NCBI GenBank assembly: GCA_030693335.1
Contig: JAUYAU010000001.1
Span: 201,796-265,795, forward strand
Reading direction: 5' to 3'
DNA from: Sulfuricurvum sp.
GTDB taxonomy: Bacteria > Campylobacterota > Campylobacteria > Campylobacterales > Sulfurimonadaceae
DNA: 64,000 nt
Under the pieces are notes generated by a model. It saw only the letters and a program-made list of their open reading frames with translations. It was not told where the DNA came from and made no database searches. Made by a program: the position numbers and the translations under genes. Positions 14,332-50,464 of this stretch are shown piece by piece. Position 1 is the first letter of the stretch. Every line of letters begins with the position of its first letter.

Positions 14332-15282
14332 TTAGCCTTTTTCATTAAACTCATCATTCTTTTTAAGTGACATGCTTGATTCCATAAGCTTGAGTTCCTG
14401 ATCTCCATTAAGTAAAACTTTATTAGATGTGATAAGTTGTGACGCATTGAATTTACTTGGATAATCACTTCGAGCGAGTACGTGTTTAAAACAGTTGAGT
14501 CGTGCTTTTTTCTTATTATCGGATCGGATGATAATCCATGGAGCATGCAGTGTGTGCGAGGCTAGAAGCATGGAATATTTTGCAATTGTATATTTATCCC
14601 ATAAATCTTGTGATTTTTCATCAACAGGAGAGAGCTTAAATTGTTTCAGAGGATCCGTCTTTCGCCCCTTGAACCGTCTTGCCTGCTCATTTTTGGAGAC
14701 AGAAAAATAAAACTTGAATAAAATAATGCCTGAATTAACCAGCATGCGCTCATATTCACCCACTTCATGCAAAAATTCTTTATGCTCTTCTTCGCTACAA
14801 AAACCCATGACCGGTTCAACACCGGCACGGTTGTACCAACTTCGATCAAAAAAGACCATTTCTCCAGCACTTGGCAGATGTTGTACGTAACGCTGAAAAT
14901 ACCATTGTGTTTTTTCAACATCGGATGGTTTGTCAAGTGCTACGACGCGCGCACCGCGTGGATTAAGATGTTCGGTAATCCGTTTGATCGTCCCACCTTT
15001 CCCGGCAGCATCACGCCCTTCAAAAATCATCAAAATTTTCAGTCCTTTTTCTTTGACGTGATTTTGAAGTTTTAGAAGTTCGATTTGAAGGGTTTTGAGC
15101 TCTTCTTCATATTCAATGACACTTGCTTTGACCCAAATAGGTAAGCGTTCTTCTTTTTTGCCTTGCTTGCGCTTCTCTTTTTTTTGTTCCTTTGCGTTTT
15201 TGCGGCGATCAGCGTGAACTACTTCTTCTATTTTGTCCGCTTCCGCTATCTCTACTCTGGCGATTGATCCTTTTGCATGCAT
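14332..15282 (-). CDS. ppk2: Polyphosphate kinase 2 family protein
   Basis: A 316-residue cytosolic PPK2 enzyme that moves phosphate between polyphosphate and nucleotides. It has the Walker A loop FEGRDAAGKGGTIKRI, the lid motif FFDRSWYNRAGVEPVMGF, and the lysine-rich FKGRKTDPLKQFKLSPVD region of class I PPK2. The N-terminal 45 residues are a Lys/Arg/Glu-rich extension. The ORF is open from GTG 15288, but AAGGGG lies 5 bases before ATG 15282, which I take as the start. The SulP-CNB transporter follows after 2 bases. Confidence 0.9.
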   Translation of the reverse strand: MHAKGSIARVEIAEADKIEEVVHADRRKNAKEQKKEKRKQGKKEERLPIWVKASVIEYEEELKTLQIELLKLQNHVKEKGLKILMIFEGRDAAGKGGTIKRITEHLNPRGARVVALDKPSDVEKTQWYFQRYVQHLPSAGEMVFFDRSWYNRAGVEPVMGFCSEEEHKEFLHEVGEYERMLVNSGIILFKFYFSVSKNEQARRFKGRKTDPLKQFKLSPVDEKSQDLWDKYTIAKYSMLLASHTLHAPWIIIRSDNKKKARLNCFKHVLARSDYPSKFNASQLITSNKVLLNGDQELKLMESSMSLKKNDEFNEKG

Positions 15283-15451
15283 GCACACCCCTTACTTTTA
15301 CTATTAATATCATTCATTGTAGCCCAAATTAATTTAAAGTGATGCTTTTAGGAATGAATCCAACTTTTTTTAAATACTTTCGGATTATTCTAGCAAATGT
15401 TAACAAAATGTGAATAGCTACTATTATAAGAATTTATTAACTGTATTGATA

Positions 15452-15457
15452 TATACT
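15452..15457 (+). promoter_or_regulatory. Probable -10 element of the MNIO RiPP operon
   Basis: TATACT lies 32 bases ahead of the precursor-peptide ATG, in an AT-rich 200-base region divergent from ppk2. AAAGGA (15477-15482) is the ribosome site, 6 bases before the ATG. No clear metal-responsive operator is recognisable by eye. Confidence 0.45.
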
Positions 15458-15488
15458 GCACTATGAATATCATAATAAAGGAAATAAC

Positions 15489-15743
15489 ATGACAAAAAAT
15501 GAAGTAGCAGCTCTCGTATTAGGTGCAACACTGTTAAGCGCCCCAATGGCAATGGCTTATGAGTCAGGAGAAAAATGTGCTGCAGATAAATGTGGTGCAG
15601 TTAAAACGAAAACAGCAGACGTAAAATGTGGTGCTGGTAAATGCGGTGCAGCTAAAATGAAAACAGCAGATGCAAAATGTGGTAGTGCAAAAGATAAAAA
15701 CGCTACTAAAGCAGCGGAAGCGAAATGTGGCGCTAAAAAATAA
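15489..15743 (+). CDS. hvfA: Cys-rich secreted RiPP precursor peptide, HvfA/bufferin-like
   Basis: An 84-residue peptide. Residues 1-23 form a Sec signal peptide (hydrophobic VAALVLGATLLSA, cleavage after APMAMA). The mature part has six cysteines (30, 35, 47, 52, 64, 80), five followed by glycine in K-C-G, and is otherwise Lys/Ala-rich with almost no hydrophobic residues. Two units of the form KCGAxKxKTADxKCG repeat every 17 residues, also visible as a 51-base DNA repeat. In Haemophilus HvfA-type peptides, EGKCG cysteines are modified by an MNIO enzyme into a copper-binding group; the gene order here is the same. Metal binding and modification are inferred, not shown by sequence. Confidence 0.85.
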   Translation: MTKNEVAALVLGATLLSAPMAMAYESGEKCAADKCGAVKTKTADVKCGAGKCGAAKMKTADAKCGSAKDKNATKAAEAKCGAKK

Positions 15744-16577
15744 GTGATAATGGGGATGAAAAATATCAAAGGGTGTGGATTAGGCTTGCGTCGGGAGTTT
15801 TTAGCAGAGTTTAGTGCTTTGAAAAAAAAGCCTGACTGGATTGAAATCACTCCTGAAAACTGGATTTTCATCCCGCATCGTTATGCAGAACATTTTGATG
15901 AGATTATGGGCTCAATGCCTGTAGTCGCACACGGTGTTTCACTCTCTATAGGTTCACCCGAGAAGATCGACAAAAGTTTTTTGAGAGAAATAAAAACTTT
16001 TTTAGATCGATATAACATTCAACACTATTCAGAACATTTGAGCTTTTCAACCTTGGGAGGGATGCAGACGTATGAACTGCTTCCATTACCGATGACAAAA
16101 GCTATGGTGATGCATATAGGGGATAAGATTAAGCAGGTAGAGGATTTCCTACAACGCCCTTTGATTCTTGAAAATGCGAGTTATTATCTGGCACCCTACA
16201 GTGAGATGGCAGAGGTAGACTTTCTCAATGAGATTGTGGAGTATGCAGATATAACACTATTGCTTGATGTTAATAATGTGTATGTTAATGCAACTAATCA
16301 CGGATTTGATGCGGATGCGTACATTAAACAAATATCTCCGTCTCGTGTAGCGTACATGCACATGGCCGGGCATCTCGAATACCCCAATGAGGCATTATTG
16401 CTGGACACTCATGGTGAAGCCATAAGCAAAAAAGTATGGAATTTATTGGAGCGAACGCTTAAAAAGATAGATAGGCCCGTGATGATTGAACGTGACAACA
16501 ATATCCCACCATTAAAAGAGTTAATGGAGGAATATAAAAAACTCTCCAAAATCGTTGCCAAAAGAGGTACGAAATGA
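15744..16577 (+). CDS. hvfB: MNIO (DUF692) family multinuclear iron oxidase, HvfB/BufB-like
   Basis: A 277-residue TIM-barrel protein of the DUF692 family, which installs modifications on cysteines of precursor peptides using two or three iron ions and oxygen. Expected metal ligands are visible: H63 (VAHGVSLS), H98 (YSEHLSFS), E143 (LENAS), D175 (LLDVNNVYVN), H206/H210 (YMHMAGH), D221/H223 (DTHG) and E249 (IERDNN). The frame is open from GTG 15744, directly after the precursor stop; ATG 15750 and 15756 are alternatives. It overlaps the next gene by ATGA. The likely substrate is the peptide encoded just upstream. Confidence 0.92.
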   Translation: MIMGMKNIKGCGLGLRREFLAEFSALKKKPDWIEITPENWIFIPHRYAEHFDEIMGSMPVVAHGVSLSIGSPEKIDKSFLREIKTFLDRYNIQHYSEHLSFSTLGGMQTYELLPLPMTKAMVMHIGDKIKQVEDFLQRPLILENASYYLAPYSEMAEVDFLNEIVEYADITLLLDVNNVYVNATNHGFDADAYIKQISPSRVAYMHMAGHLEYPNEALLLDTHGEAISKKVWNLLERTLKKIDRPVMIERDNNIPPLKELMEEYKKLSKIVAKRGTK

Positions 16578-17272
16578 AAACTGAAACAGCGGTTATGGAG
16601 CGTTTCGTCCAAATCATCCAAAATAACGAAGAACTCTCTAACCCTTTACATAATCGATTACAGGTGTATCGGGATATGGTTCAATATCGATTTGTCGAGA
16701 CGATTGAAAATATTTACCCGATTCTTTCATCGCAATTGGGACCAAAGATGATGCATGATCTCATACGGGAGTTTATTTCGATAGGAGCAAAAAATCCGCT
16801 TATCGTCAAGATGGCAGAAGAGTTTGGCGACTTTTTACGTCATCATGCAAAGCTAAAATCGATTCTGTATTTGGAAGATCTTTTATGGTTTGAGTATGGT
16901 GAATTGGAACTGTTGAGCAGAAGTTTTAAGGATGCTCAAACACGATTCGATTGGAATAAACAATACAAGCTCTCATCTTCTTCATTGGTGCGCAATGTTA
17001 GCTATAGAGTGCATAGCAGTGAATTTGATTCACTTTGTACTTCTTCATTACTGCTGTATTATCATTTTGATGAAGAACGGGTCTATTTTGAAGAGATCAC
17101 CTTTTTTGCTCAGCAGCTTATTGACATGCTGGAGAAGATGACGCTTGAACATTCGGTAATAGAGTTGGCGCAAATATATGAACTTGATGTTGAAATATTA
17201 CGTGAAAGCGTTGAGAAATTGGTTACAAAATGGTGTAATCAACGTGTGTTAATCAAATTTACGGAGGTATGA
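16574..17272 (+). CDS. hvfC: DUF2063 family RiPP-recognition partner, HvfC/BufC-like
   Basis: A 232-residue protein whose first ~95 residues match the DUF2063 domain (ERFVQIIQ..., HNRLQVYRDMVQYRFVETIE, IYPILSSQLG, EFGDFLRHHA), labelled a putative DNA-binding domain in databases but known in this setting as the partner that presents the precursor to the MNIO enzyme. The C-terminal half (about 110-232) has the arrangement of a winged-helix-like precursor recognition element. It overlaps the MNIO gene by 4 bases and ends 1 base before the DoxX gene, so the stoichiometric pair is probably translated together. Confidence 0.88.
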   Translation: MKTETAVMERFVQIIQNNEELSNPLHNRLQVYRDMVQYRFVETIENIYPILSSQLGPKMMHDLIREFISIGAKNPLIVKMAEEFGDFLRHHAKLKSILYLEDLLWFEYGELELLSRSFKDAQTRFDWNKQYKLSSSSLVRNVSYRVHSSEFDSLCTSSLLLYYHFDEERVYFEEITFFAQQLIDMLEKMTLEHSVIELAQIYELDVEILRESVEKLVTKWCNQRVLIKFTEV

Positions 17273-17273
17273 A

Positions 17274-17702
17274 ATGTATTCTTTACTAAAAAAAATGGAA
17301 ACTTTACTGGACAAGGGGCAAGATTTCTCACTGTTATTTTTGCGTCTTATTTTAGCGTACGGCTTCTATTCACCTGCTATGAACAAGTGGGCAGATATCG
17401 GTGCAGTTGCAACGTGGTTTGAACAAGGGTTGGGAATTCCATTTCCCTTGCTTAATGCTTATTTAGCAGCATCAACGGAAATGGCAGGCGTAGTATTATT
17501 GGTGTTGGGTCTTGGGGTGCGTTTTATTGCACTGCCGATGATGGTCGTTATGGTGGTGGCAATTACGGTAGTTCATTTGGCAAACGGATTTTCATCAGGG
17601 GATAACGGATTCGAAATTCCGCTGTATTATCTGTTGATGTTGTTTACCCTTGCCGTATATGGTGGTGGAAAATTCGGTTTGGATAATTTTTTAAAAAAAT
17701 AA
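17274..17702 (+). CDS. hvfD: DoxX family membrane protein, HvfD-like
   Basis: A 142-residue DoxX-family protein with four membrane segments (about residues 18-34, 60-82, 84-104, 114-134) and the family sequence FLRLILAYGFYSPAMNKWAD near the start. GGAGG lies 7 bases before the ATG. DoxX proteins are commonly the fourth gene of DUF692/DUF2063 clusters; their biochemical role there is unknown. It ends the four-gene operon; a weak stem-loop follows at 17714-17731. Confidence 0.88.
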   Translation: MYSLLKKMETLLDKGQDFSLLFLRLILAYGFYSPAMNKWADIGAVATWFEQGLGIPFPLLNAYLAASTEMAGVVLLVLGLGVRFIALPMMVVMVVAITVVHLANGFSSGDNGFEIPLYYLLMLFTLAVYGGGKFGLDNFLKK

Positions 17703-17713
17703 TAGATTTCATT

Positions 17714-17736
17714 AATACTGTTAATAGTATTGTTTC
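17714..17736 (+). terminator. Weak stem-loop after the RiPP operon
   Basis: AATACT and AGTATT form a 6-base stem around a 6-base loop, followed by the T-rich GTTTCCTTTT. This could be a leaky terminator separating the RiPP operon from dsbD. Confidence 0.35.
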
Positions 17737-17793
17737 CTTTTCTTACATCAAGGTATGCTAAAATAATGCATACAAGCAATCAAAGGGTTAACA

Positions 17794-19632
17794 ATGCGGT
17801 TTTTAATTCCATTATTTTTTTCTGTGGCTCTTTTTGGAGTCAGTTTTCTTCAGCCTGAAGAAGCCTTCAAACCTAGAATCAGCAAAATTGACAAAGACAC
17901 CATTGGTATTGATATTGATCTAGGTCAGGATATCTATCTTTATAAAGACAAAATAAAGATCGAAGATGCAAATCTCAAAGACGGGATTAATTTCAAGTCC
18001 GTAAAAATGGAAAAATCCGTAGATCATGACGGAGAACAGGTCTTTATGAGTTCTCCAAAAATCCGCATTGACCTATTGAAAACAAATGTTATCAGCGGTG
18101 ACCATAAAGTCAAAGTAAATCTTAGCTATCAGGGATGTTCATCTGCTGGACTGTGTTATGAGCCTATGGATACAACACTGGAAGTATCGATTGATGCGGA
18201 TCAGCTGGATGACGTAAAGACGGCAGAGCCTTCAGTGATTAAAGCGGATGCTGTAGAAGTAAAAGAAGTTAAATCACTCATAAGTGCTGAAAAAAATGAT
18301 ACGAAACTTAGTGGAATTTCTAAGGTATCCAATGAATCCGAAACGGATAGAATTGCTAGCGTAATTCAAGGCGGGAGTATTTGGTTTATCATTATAAGCT
18401 TTTTCGGATTTGGTTTATTACTTGCTTTAACGCCATGTGTTTTTCCTATGATTCCGATTATATCTTCCGTTATTCTTTCACAGGGTGAGGGTATTGGAAC
18501 GAGAAAAGCATTTTTGCTTTCTCTAGTTTATGTCCTATCGATGGCGGTTGCTTATACAATAGCAGGTATTCTTGCAGGTCTTTTTGGGGCGAATTTACAA
18601 GCAGCTTTCCAAACACCGTGGATCATTACTGCATTCGCACTGATCTTTGTCCTTTTGTCTTTATCTATGTTTGATGTGTATGAACTGCAAATTCCAAATT
18701 TTATTCAATCACGTATTTCTAAACTTGGCGGTCAACGAAGCGGCGTTATCGGTGTCGCGATTATGGGATTTTTGTCGGCACTGATTGTTGGACCGTGTGT
18801 TGCGGCACCACTTGCCGGAGCTTTGATTTACATCGGTCAAACAGGTGATGCTTTACTGGGAGGAATTGCACTCTTCATGCTAAGTATTGGGATGGGTGTT
18901 CCATTACTTATTGTAGGGACTACATCGGGTAAATTTATGCCGAAACCTGGCATGTGGATGGATGTTATTAAAGCGATTTTTGGGGTAATGCTACTTGGAA
19001 TTGCTATTTGGATGATCGGACGTGTATTAGACGAAAACACTACTTTGTTGTTATGGGGTGGATTGGCAATCTTTGTAGCTATTAATATGAATACGCTAGA
19101 ACCATTGGGTGAACATCCATCTTGGAGTTCACGTGCTAATGTGAAAGCACTTGGCTTTATGATACTGCTATATGGGATGTCACTACTTTTAGGCGGAATG
19201 GCAGGGGCTAAAGACCTTCTCCATCCACTTGATCCTTTTGTAGGCAAAGGTCAACAAGCTTTAGCGCAGGCGACAATGCATAATAGATTTGAAAAAATTC
19301 GAGCGATTGAAGAGCTTGATGCTATTTTGCTTGAGAATAAGGGCAAGACGGTCATGGTAGATTTTTACGCTGACTGGTGTACTTCGTGCAAAGAGTTTGA
19401 AAAGATAACGTTTAGTGATGAATCTGTTCAATCAGAGATGGATAAGTTGATTTTAGTACAAGTTGATCTAACAACAAATGATGATGCTGCCAAAGCTTTT
19501 ACGAAAAAATACGGTATTTTCGGTCCGCCGGCCATTTTATTTTTTGATGAGAATGGCCATTTACGAAATGATAAAACAATTGTCGGATTTAAAGAGCCAA
19601 AAGAGTTTTTACAACATCTTAAAGGGCTATAA
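17794..19632 (+). CDS. dsbD: Thiol:disulfide interchange protein DsbD
   Basis: A 612-residue electron conduit that passes reducing power from cytoplasmic thioredoxin to the periplasm. It has a signal peptide, an N-terminal immunoglobulin-like domain with the Cys pair in SYQGCSSAGLCYEP (about residues 110-125), eight membrane segments (about 190-490) with the Cys pair in LTPCVFPMIP and VGPCVAAPLAG, and a C-terminal thioredoxin domain with C529/C532 in ADWCTSCKEFE. AAAGGG precedes the ATG. It lies 91 bases after the DoxX gene on the same strand; keeping the secreted precursor's cysteines reduced is a possible reason for the proximity, but that is inference. Confidence 0.94.
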   Translation: MRFLIPLFFSVALFGVSFLQPEEAFKPRISKIDKDTIGIDIDLGQDIYLYKDKIKIEDANLKDGINFKSVKMEKSVDHDGEQVFMSSPKIRIDLLKTNVISGDHKVKVNLSYQGCSSAGLCYEPMDTTLEVSIDADQLDDVKTAEPSVIKADAVEVKEVKSLISAEKNDTKLSGISKVSNESETDRIASVIQGGSIWFIIISFFGFGLLLALTPCVFPMIPIISSVILSQGEGIGTRKAFLLSLVYVLSMAVAYTIAGILAGLFGANLQAAFQTPWIITAFALIFVLLSLSMFDVYELQIPNFIQSRISKLGGQRSGVIGVAIMGFLSALIVGPCVAAPLAGALIYIGQTGDALLGGIALFMLSIGMGVPLLIVGTTSGKFMPKPGMWMDVIKAIFGVMLLGIAIWMIGRVLDENTTLLLWGGLAIFVAINMNTLEPLGEHPSWSSRANVKALGFMILLYGMSLLLGGMAGAKDLLHPLDPFVGKGQQALAQATMHNRFEKIRAIEELDAILLENKGKTVMVDFYADWCTSCKEFEKITFSDESVQSEMDKLILVQVDLTTNDDAAKAFTKKYGIFGPPAILFFDENGHLRNDKTIVGFKEPKEFLQHLKGL

Positions 19633-34817: not shown

Positions 34818-34834
34818 GCGGAACTTTATTCCGC
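34818..34834. terminator. Small bidirectional stem-loop
   Basis: GCGGAA-CTTTA-TTCCGC overlaps the end of the helicase-like gene and follows the MATE stop directly. Without a T-run, it is only a candidate terminator. Confidence 0.3.
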
Positions 34835-36001
34835 AGACTCTTTTGGCTTGAGGGATTTTACGCTGATACGGCGTGGTGCTCGTTTAGGGGCGGTATCGGT
34901 TTGTGCCGGTTTTGGTCTGTCATATGCGGGTTTGCTGTCATAGGATTTTTTCTCACCATAAGGTTTTTTATCCCCAAATGGTTTTTTGTCGCCATATGGC
35001 TTCTTGTCACCAAAAGGTTTTTTATCACCGTAAGGCTTCTTTTCCTCATAAGGGCGTTTATCGTCTTTGTTAAACGCTGGTTTCCCCTCATACGGTTTAC
35101 GTTCAGGATTGAAAGGTTTTTTTGCGTCATCATTTTTCTTGGCTTTATCATGCTCACCAAAGAACTTTGGTTTATTGACAAATGCAGTTTTTGCAAATTT
35201 TTCAGAATCACTTCTTGGCGTTCCATCAATATAATGATTTCGTTCACGTGTTTTGGTACCAAAAATCGGTTTACCGTTTTCGTCTTTACCTAAAAATTCA
35301 GTAGGTCTCGGCTTTTTGTCCCATGGATTCGAGCTTTTAGATTCTGTTCTATTTCCCTCATACGGCTTGCGAGCAGGACGGCTGTCGTCTCTTGGACTAC
35401 GCTCTTCACGTTTGAATTCAGGTCGTGCATCATCACGTCTTGGTTTGAAATCAGATTTGGAATTATCACGGCGAGGTTTGAATTCGCTTCGTGAATCTTC
35501 CCGCTTTGGTTTAAACTCACGTTTTGGTGGTCTGGCACGTTCTTCTTCACGTTTGGCTCGTTGTGCGGCCATCTCTTCTTTATTTTTTTGCTCTACCGCA
35601 ATTCCGAAGTTTGGTTCAAAACCTGCAACAGGCTCTTGTGTGATCGTGCGACCGAAAAGCGTTTCGATCGCATACAGATTTTTTTGATCTTCCGCACCCA
35701 AAAGAATAATGGCAAATTCTTTTGCACGAGCATAGCGTGTCATGTAAATAATCGCTTTATCAGGCAGATCATAACTGATGACAATGTCATACATCGTCTC
35801 GCTAGGCTGTACTAAATCACTGTCGCTTACGAGTGTGATATCTTTGGTTTGGGCTATGTCAATCGCTTTTGTATCATTGGCTGTTACAACGAGGATTGAA
35901 CGGGCAGGGTTTTGTGAGATGACAAAGTTCAGTAATTCCGTTTTACGGGCAGTACTACAAGGGTGGATACGGTGGTTTTGACGTTTGATAGTTGATGACA
36001 T
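34826..36001 (-). CDS. Degenerate helicase C-terminal-domain protein with repetitive basic tail
   Basis: A 391-residue protein. Residues 1-130 resemble only the second RecA-like domain of DEAD-box helicases (ILVVTANDTKAIDIAQTKDI, YDIVISYDLPDKAIIYMTRY); the HRxGRxGR motif is degenerate (TRYARAKE) and the first, ATP-binding domain is absent. Residues 140-391 are disordered and basic: EFKPRRD-type repeats, then six 6-residue units of the kind KKPYGD/KKPFGD. This suggests an ATP-independent RNA-binding or chaperone protein. The ribosome site lies in a stem-loop (36007-36042). No assigned name. Confidence 0.7.
   Translation of the reverse strand: MSSTIKRQNHRIHPCSTARKTELLNFVISQNPARSILVVTANDTKAIDIAQTKDITLVSDSDLVQPSETMYDIVISYDLPDKAIIYMTRYARAKEFAIILLGAEDQKNLYAIETLFGRTITQEPVAGFEPNFGIAVEQKNKEEMAAQRAKREEERARPPKREFKPKREDSRSEFKPRRDNSKSDFKPRRDDARPEFKREERSPRDDSRPARKPYEGNRTESKSSNPWDKKPRPTEFLGKDENGKPIFGTKTRERNHYIDGTPRSDSEKFAKTAFVNKPKFFGEHDKAKKNDDAKKPFNPERKPYEGKPAFNKDDKRPYEEKKPYGDKKPFGDKKPYGDKKPFGDKKPYGEKKSYDSKPAYDRPKPAQTDTAPKRAPRRISVKSLKPKESAE
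34940..35045 (-). repeat. 18-base coding tandem repeats (KKPYGD/KKPFGD)
   Basis: Six near-identical 18-base units alternate Tyr and Phe at the third from last place. They lie within the helicase-like gene. Copy number could vary between strains by slippage without shifting the frame. Confidence 0.75.
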
Positions 36002-49810: not shown

Positions 49811-50020
49811 TTATGCCGATTGTGCTGTTTTTGAGTTCTTGGCAAGAAGACGCATAAGGGTACGTAAGGCTTCATTGACGGATTTTGAATCTGGAAATAC
49901 TTTTGTTACGTCTTCATCGATTTTGACGATATTGACACCTTCATTATAGGCTTGCGCATATTTACCGCGAACACCTTTGCTGAAATCGTATTCGTCCAGC
50001 ATTTCAGATTGTTTTTTCAT
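49811..50020 (-). CDS. BrnA-like antitoxin
   Basis: A 69-residue protein with DEYDFSKGVRGKYAQAY and a C-terminal ribbon-helix-helix-like SKSVNEALRTLMRLLAKN. It overlaps the BrnT toxin gene by 4 bases, as antitoxin genes commonly do, and lies just after it. It would bind the toxin and the operon's promoter. Its sequence differs enough from classical BrnA that the name is tentative. Confidence 0.7.
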   Translation of the reverse strand: MKKQSEMLDEYDFSKGVRGKYAQAYNEGVNIVKIDEDVTKVFPDSKSVNEALRTLMRLLAKNSKTAQSA

Positions 50021-50298
50021 TGCTGTTCCTCATAAAAATTTTGTTCATTTTTCGTGGCAGGTCGTGCTGAAATAATTCGAATCGATTCATGTCTTTCGAT
50101 ATGAACGACGACTAGGGTATTGAGATATTCGGATTTTCCGATGATAATTAATCTGCTTTCGTCATCGGAATGTAAAGGATCGTCGATCGTAATGGCGAGC
50201 CAATCCCCGAAAACTGTACTAGCTTCTTCAAATGAGATAGCATGCTTTTTCAGATTTGAAATTGCTTTTTTATCATCCCATTCAAATTTCAAGCCCAT
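50017..50298 (-). CDS. brnT: BrnT-family toxin
   Basis: A 93-residue ribonuclease-like toxin with the family pattern FEWDDKKAISNLKKHAISFE, EASTVFGDWLAITIDDPLHS, DESRLIIIGKSE and the C-terminal RIISARPATKNEQNFYEEQ containing the conserved Arg. ATG 50298 with AGGAAA upstream is used instead of the ORF limit 50334. The antitoxin-like gene overlaps it by 4 bases. An inverted repeat (CCTAT-GTTG-ATAGG) is upstream. Confidence 0.85.
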   Translation of the reverse strand: MGLKFEWDDKKAISNLKKHAISFEEASTVFGDWLAITIDDPLHSDDESRLIIIGKSEYLNTLVVVHIERHESIRIISARPATKNEQNFYEEQQ

Positions 50299-50307
50299 TT
50301 TACTTTT

Positions 50308-50321
50308 CCTATGTTGATAGG
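50308..50321. promoter_or_regulatory. Inverted repeat ahead of brnT
   Basis: CCTAT-GTTG-ATAGG lies 10 bases before the toxin ATG on the minus strand, next to a TACAAT-like -10. It may be the autoregulatory operator. Confidence 0.4.
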
Positions 50322-50464
50322 GATATTGTAGCATAATTTGAGATGGTGCTTAAGGGTAGTCTGCATTCCCACTCAGGAGAGTGTGAACGAGAGAAAAAAA
50401 GGTAAATATAGTTTATTTACGATATATTAGACCTTATAATTGTTTTTAGAATAAGGATACATAA

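Follow-up and report, generated by a model that had tools for sequence, protein, structure and literature searches.

We identified four adjoining plus-strand genes at 15489-17702 of a 64,000-nucleotide stretch of Sulfuricurvum DNA (the window, part of a 2.17 Mb Campylobacterota assembly in 18 contigs), encoding a precursor peptide, an MNIO enzyme, a DUF2063/RRE partner and a DoxX/HvfX protein. In all likelihood, they constitute an oxazolin-type RiPP operon that makes a periplasmic copper-binding thiooxazole peptide. This reading draws on the genes and their families, the conservation of the enzyme's ligands, the fold of the partner, the repeat unit of the precursor and conservation across species, all observed here. 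Judged by its profile matches, the locus falls in the Hvf/oxazolin ("captophorin", Lys-Cys) branch and not among the bufferins proper, and it adds another example to a recently described, chemically worked-out cluster type instead of founding a new one.

Organization of the locus

The features of the locus and its immediate surroundings are as follows.

15400..15473, plus strand: candidate promoter stretch with the blocks TTAACA and TTgATATATACT
15489..15743, plus strand: hvfA-like precursor gene, 84 aa (NF050137, 43.4 bits; orthologues in 5 further genomes of the genus)
15572..15683, plus strand: 51-base tandem repeat, 2.2 copies (Tandem Repeats Finder)
15756..16577, plus strand: hvfB-like MNIO (DUF692) gene, 273 aa from ATG 15756 (PF05114; the ORF as called starts at GTG 15744)
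16574..17272, plus strand: hvfC-like DUF2063/RRE partner gene (PME type 1), 232 aa (PF09836, 3DEE)
17274..17702, plus strand: hvfX-like gene for a DoxX integral membrane protein, 142 aa (PF07681, NF050144)
17794..19632, plus strand: dsbD, thiol:disulfide interchange protein (DsbD_TM, 4.5e-93)

The original prediction had read this segment as a plus-strand set of four genes for a secreted Cys-rich precursor, a DUF692 enzyme, a DUF2063 partner and a DoxX protein. All four open reading frames are present and intact, and all four identities are borne out by profile matches together with a signal peptide read by eye. The profile search that it had proposed as a check placed the 277-residue protein inside DUF692 (PF05114, 313 bits, E=1.6e-93), the third gene product in DUF2063 (PF09836, 36 bits over 27.2, E=8.5e-9) and the fourth in DoxX (PF07681, 58 bits, E=1.1e-15), values that rule out chance for the family assignments.

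As to spacing, predicted as overlaps of 4 bases and gaps of 0-1, the B and C genes do overlap by 4 bases (ATGA, 16574-16577) and C and X are 1 base apart, but the gap of 0 between A and B hangs on the GTG at 15744. Because homologues start at the counterpart of ATG 15756 (MKNIKGCGLGLRREF...), this codon is preferred, and the enzyme probably has 273 residues, with a 12-base A/B gap. A ribosome-binding-like AAAGGA/AAGGA upstream of the precursor gene is conserved, and the TTAACA and TTgATATATACT blocks are common to most of the six genomes of the genus that carry the locus. A sigma-70 scan of the upstream stretch gave results at chance level, promoter and terminator scans did not rise above shuffled sequences, and the search for RNA elements returned no Rfam match.

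The published operon order is hvfA-B-C-X, and the fourth gene exceeds the cut-off of the HvfX model (NF050144, 122.5 bits over 80). The "D" in the predicted label "HvfABCD" should therefore read hvfX, the name of the DoxX gene in the literature on the hvf operon, where we did not find an hvfD.

The MNIO enzyme

Among NCBIfam models, the enzyme is best matched by HvfB (323 bits, cut-off 360), ahead of BufB (274 bits), both scores lying below the equivalog cut-offs, and its best match among solved structures is 3BWW (E=8e-57), called closely related to HvfB in a 2026 preprint. The metal ligands named in the original prediction (H63, H98, E143, D175, H206, H210, D221, H223 and E249, numbered on the 277-residue form) and, in addition, N177 are invariant in all 38 enzymes of the alignment, one of them the 3BWW fragment. 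Together with the profile scores, this places the enzyme in the HvfB/BufB branch of MNIOs, its iron ligands conserved. Replacing N175, D242 or H244 of HvfB abolishes activity, and these residues would correspond to N177, D221 and H223 here.

A methanobactin-like system for copper acquisition, with oxazolone-thioamide groups and re-uptake, would share the enzyme superfamily, and some similarity to MbnB is indeed detectable (E about 1e-7). However, the enzyme scores just 50 bits against the MbnB model TIGR04159, far below its cut-off of 325, the partner is a type 1 DUF2063 protein in place of MbnC, the precursor has a signal peptide, and the products of HvfB have been reassigned to 5-thiooxazole, so that we regard this reading as extremely improbable.

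The precursor peptide

The N-terminus of the precursor forms a putative Sec signal peptide, MTKNEVAALVLGATLLSAPMAMA, with an AMA cleavage site, both read by eye. The mature part comprises 61 residues, with a computed average mass of 6058.0 Da when unmodified. Of its six Cys, five lie in KCG motifs and the remaining one in KCA, and none of 20,000 shuffles of the mature peptide reached five KCG. The 51-base repeat encodes a 17-residue unit holding two KC[GA] motifs, and this is the unit, with two EGKCG motifs in 17 residues, published for Buf_EGKCG/oxazolin precursors (PMC12452194). Conservation across relatives falls on the signal region and on the Cys motifs. The computed pI of the product is about 9.3, and no second, unlinked precursor, MNIO or partner was found elsewhere in the same genome.

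The precursor thus combines a signal peptide with Lys-Cys repeats and exceeds the cut-off of NF050137, the HvfA-type KCG domain model (43.4 bits versus 19.5). It scores 34.6 bits against the HvfA equivalog, short of the cut-off of 95, and by this measure is not an HvfA equivalog. The HvfA, HvfB and HvfC equivalog models rank at or near the top for A, B and C, yet all three proteins miss the cut-offs, and the locus therefore represents a diverged subgroup within the Hvf branch. A relative from the Arcobacteraceae (L003) gives the same pattern against these models. The strict EGKCG motif is absent from the precursor, which carries AKCGA, DKCGA and VKCGA instead. As published, however, the class takes in other Lys-Cys 5-mers, and membership therefore stands.

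The original prediction had named the type "HvfABCD/bufferin", of which the Hvf part holds and the bufferin part does not. A bufferin operon proper (Buf1/Buf2), with a folded precursor of four or six Cys, would have the same core genes and an enzyme related to BufB. Yet neither DUF2282, which marks the Buf1-type precursor of bufferin 1, nor any other Pfam family matches the precursor, which matches the HvfA-type domain model instead and carries KCG repeats, and the enzyme scores higher against HvfB than against BufB. As for bufferin 2, the KCG-repeat layout of the precursor fits the description of the EGKCG group instead. Taken together, a bufferin identity is very unlikely.

The partner protein and HvfX

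The DUF2063 protein scores 75 bits against the HvfC model, below the cut-off of 142, and a single-sequence search against the PDB found no solved relative. A profile built from 20 of its relatives, in turn, matches 3DEE, a published type 1 MNIO partner, at 1.1e-21. An AlphaFold2 model of the protein (mean pLDDT 87) likewise has 3DEE as its top Foldseek match (E=2.9e-8, TM 0.69/0.79), followed by TglHI. Profile and fold thus agree on a PME type 1 partner with DUF2063 and an RRE, a kind that accompanies precursors bearing signal peptides. The HvfX-type DoxX protein completes the set, HvfX being optional in the family.

Distribution in Campylobacterota

An MNIO was found in 10 of 60 relatives, five of them within the genus; in the phylum as a whole, 26 of 397 genomes had one above the cut-off. 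Within the genus, the locus occurs in six genomes, the window included, and is lacking in the majority; this patchiness argues against an essential function. In all six, the order A-B-C is kept, with dsbD next downstream. The sister genome G022 (L001 / L034, G022:C92) lacks hvfX, with A, B, C and dsbD still in place; L001 and L034 appear to be one genome, as both have an identical enzyme and a 22,370-base contig. In eleven Arcobacter-type loci, no gene directly after C resembles DoxX, as judged from the sequences and from the absence of BLAST matches to HvfX, consistent with the variable gene combinations that have been published (PMC12452194). In one locus, L037 (G043:C79), the MNIO and its partner have no recognizable Cys-rich precursor just upstream.

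The Campylobacterota enzymes form a single clade with full support in a tree rooted by midpoint only; with this rooting, horizontal transfer from outside the phylum is not supported. Our literature search found no paper on Campylobacterota members, although such papers may exist.

Patchiness in the genus, along with an additional copy that stop codons interrupt in one relative, could also be taken to mean that the locus is inactive or decaying. This is highly improbable, given that none of the four reading frames is broken, every ligand is retained, and the orthologues of the enzyme, the partner and DoxX are 70-90% identical across several species. The broken copy is a separate one (L038:1228-1725; G030:C4:56548-56790), in which a second KCG precursor of 78 aa is followed by an MNIO frame interrupted by two TAG codons, and it is a decaying extra copy.

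Genomic neighbourhood

The dsbD gene starts 91 bases downstream of the operon. We considered it as a fifth operon gene and rejected this as a firm claim: dsbD is present in most relatives, including most of those without the operon, and its adjacency therefore says little. In the five MNIO-free relatives inspected (L071-L074, L087), dsbD faces a DUF255/thioredoxin-like gene beside PPK2 (the DUF255 family being assigned on the orthologue in L082), so the operon's place among these thiol-redox genes varies in content between genomes, and what ties the operon to dsbD is position. Across the genus, the interval between PPK2 and dsbD (window 14332-19632) holds the MNIO operon in some genomes and, in others, a DUF255/thioredoxin gene or different redox genes.

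Elsewhere in the window, a BrnT toxin gene (PF04365, 92.7 bits) and a small ORF downstream of it, probably the antitoxin, lie at 49811-50334 on the minus strand, near DUF4160 and DUF2442 genes. An array of six tandem copies (18/36 bases; 34946-35053) lies within a 391-aa minus-strand ORF (34826-36001), for which a Pfam search gave no match.

Comparison with known systems

The closest counterpart in gene content is hvfABCX of nontypeable Haemophilus influenzae (PMC13419390), which has the same A, B, C and X genes, a precursor with a Sec signal and six Cys in repeated KCG-type motifs, and the same iron ligands. It differs in its precursor motif, AEGKCGEGKCG versus AKCGA/DKCGA plus one KCA here; further, A, B and C of our locus stay under the Hvf equivalog cut-offs, and dsbD lies downstream. 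The fontiphorin cluster fonABC of the captophorin class (PMC13097082) likewise combines an MNIO, a PME1 protein and a precursor of the Lys-Cys group, yet FonA has EGKCG at seven sites, in contrast to the Glu-poor AKCGA type described here. Buf_EGKCG/oxazolin type 1 (PMC12452194) has the 17-residue unit with two motifs as well; these systems are mostly from Pseudomonadota, whereas ours is from Campylobacterota, short (2.2 units) and Glu-poor. The bulbicupramide cluster of Microbulbifer (PMC12538549) also encodes a precursor with KCG repeats, an MNIO and a DUF2063 protein; its units are EGKCG, the cluster was described as mmrA-C only, and copper protection was doubtful there.

AKCGA is among the common 5-mers catalogued for captophorins, and FonBC accepts Ala after Cys (position 5) as well as most non-Glu residues at position 1. 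Nevertheless, FonBC modified an AKCGA double substrate just once, and an E6A variant was turned over poorly (PMC13097082). The Glu-poor motif is thus compatible with thiooxazole chemistry, but the single modification of AKCGA suggests that the enzyme here is probably of adapted specificity. The suggestion in the original prediction that the product may be a new metallopeptide goes too far, considering that the motif unit and the 17-residue repeat are published and that a related enzyme pair has on one occasion modified an AKCGA substrate.

Proposed function

In the scheme that we favour, the precursor would carry a Sec signal peptide by which the HvfC-like RRE partner also recognizes it. With a mixed-valent diiron site and O2, the HvfB-HvfC pair would then oxidize Cys of the KCG repeats to up to six 5-thiooxazoles, with a loss of about 4 Da per Cys. 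The modified peptide would be exported, its signal cut after AMA-23, and would remain in the periplasm or close to it, there using its thiol groups to bind copper and buffer surplus metal, with HvfX in an assisting role. What we propose for the cysteine chemistry, for copper binding and for protection is inferred from studied relatives. Work on HvfBC and FonBC established the mixed-valent diiron site and the oxidation of Cys, each of which loses about 4 Da on becoming a 5-thiooxazole, and showed that the partner protein is needed and that the signal peptide favours modification; HvfBC in particular converts six Cys to 5-thiooxazoles and acts preferentially on a precursor that has its signal.

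Copper buffering, the least certain step of the scheme, is moderately probable. Among the immediate neighbours, none was recognized as having an obvious role in copper handling, and a closely similar thiooxazole peptide conferred weak, non-robust copper protection in E. coli. Alternatively, the thiooxazole chemistry may be kept while the product serves in redox or sulfide stress or handles another soft metal. A DoxX homologue elsewhere guards against oxidative or sulphur stress, further metals have been proposed for MNIO peptides, and dsbD adjoins the operon in every operon-bearing genome of the genus. Set against this are the binding of copper by the characterized EGKCG products and the presence of dsbD in genomes without the operon, and we consider such a role possible, if unlikely. 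A more specific and rather doubtful variant is a Campylobacterota-specific subgroup that lost the Glu of EGKCG, with HvfBC co-evolved to process AKCGA repeats fully, and whose basic thiooxazole product would differ in the metals it prefers or, linked to DsbD, play a redox/sulfide role.

The locus leaves the understanding of the class unchanged. As a probable oxazolin-type operon, it extends the range of chemically established thiooxazole metallophore operons to free-living Campylobacterota, and it gives a compact natural substrate lacking the Glu of EGKCG that helps to learn which precursor residues the enzyme pair reads.
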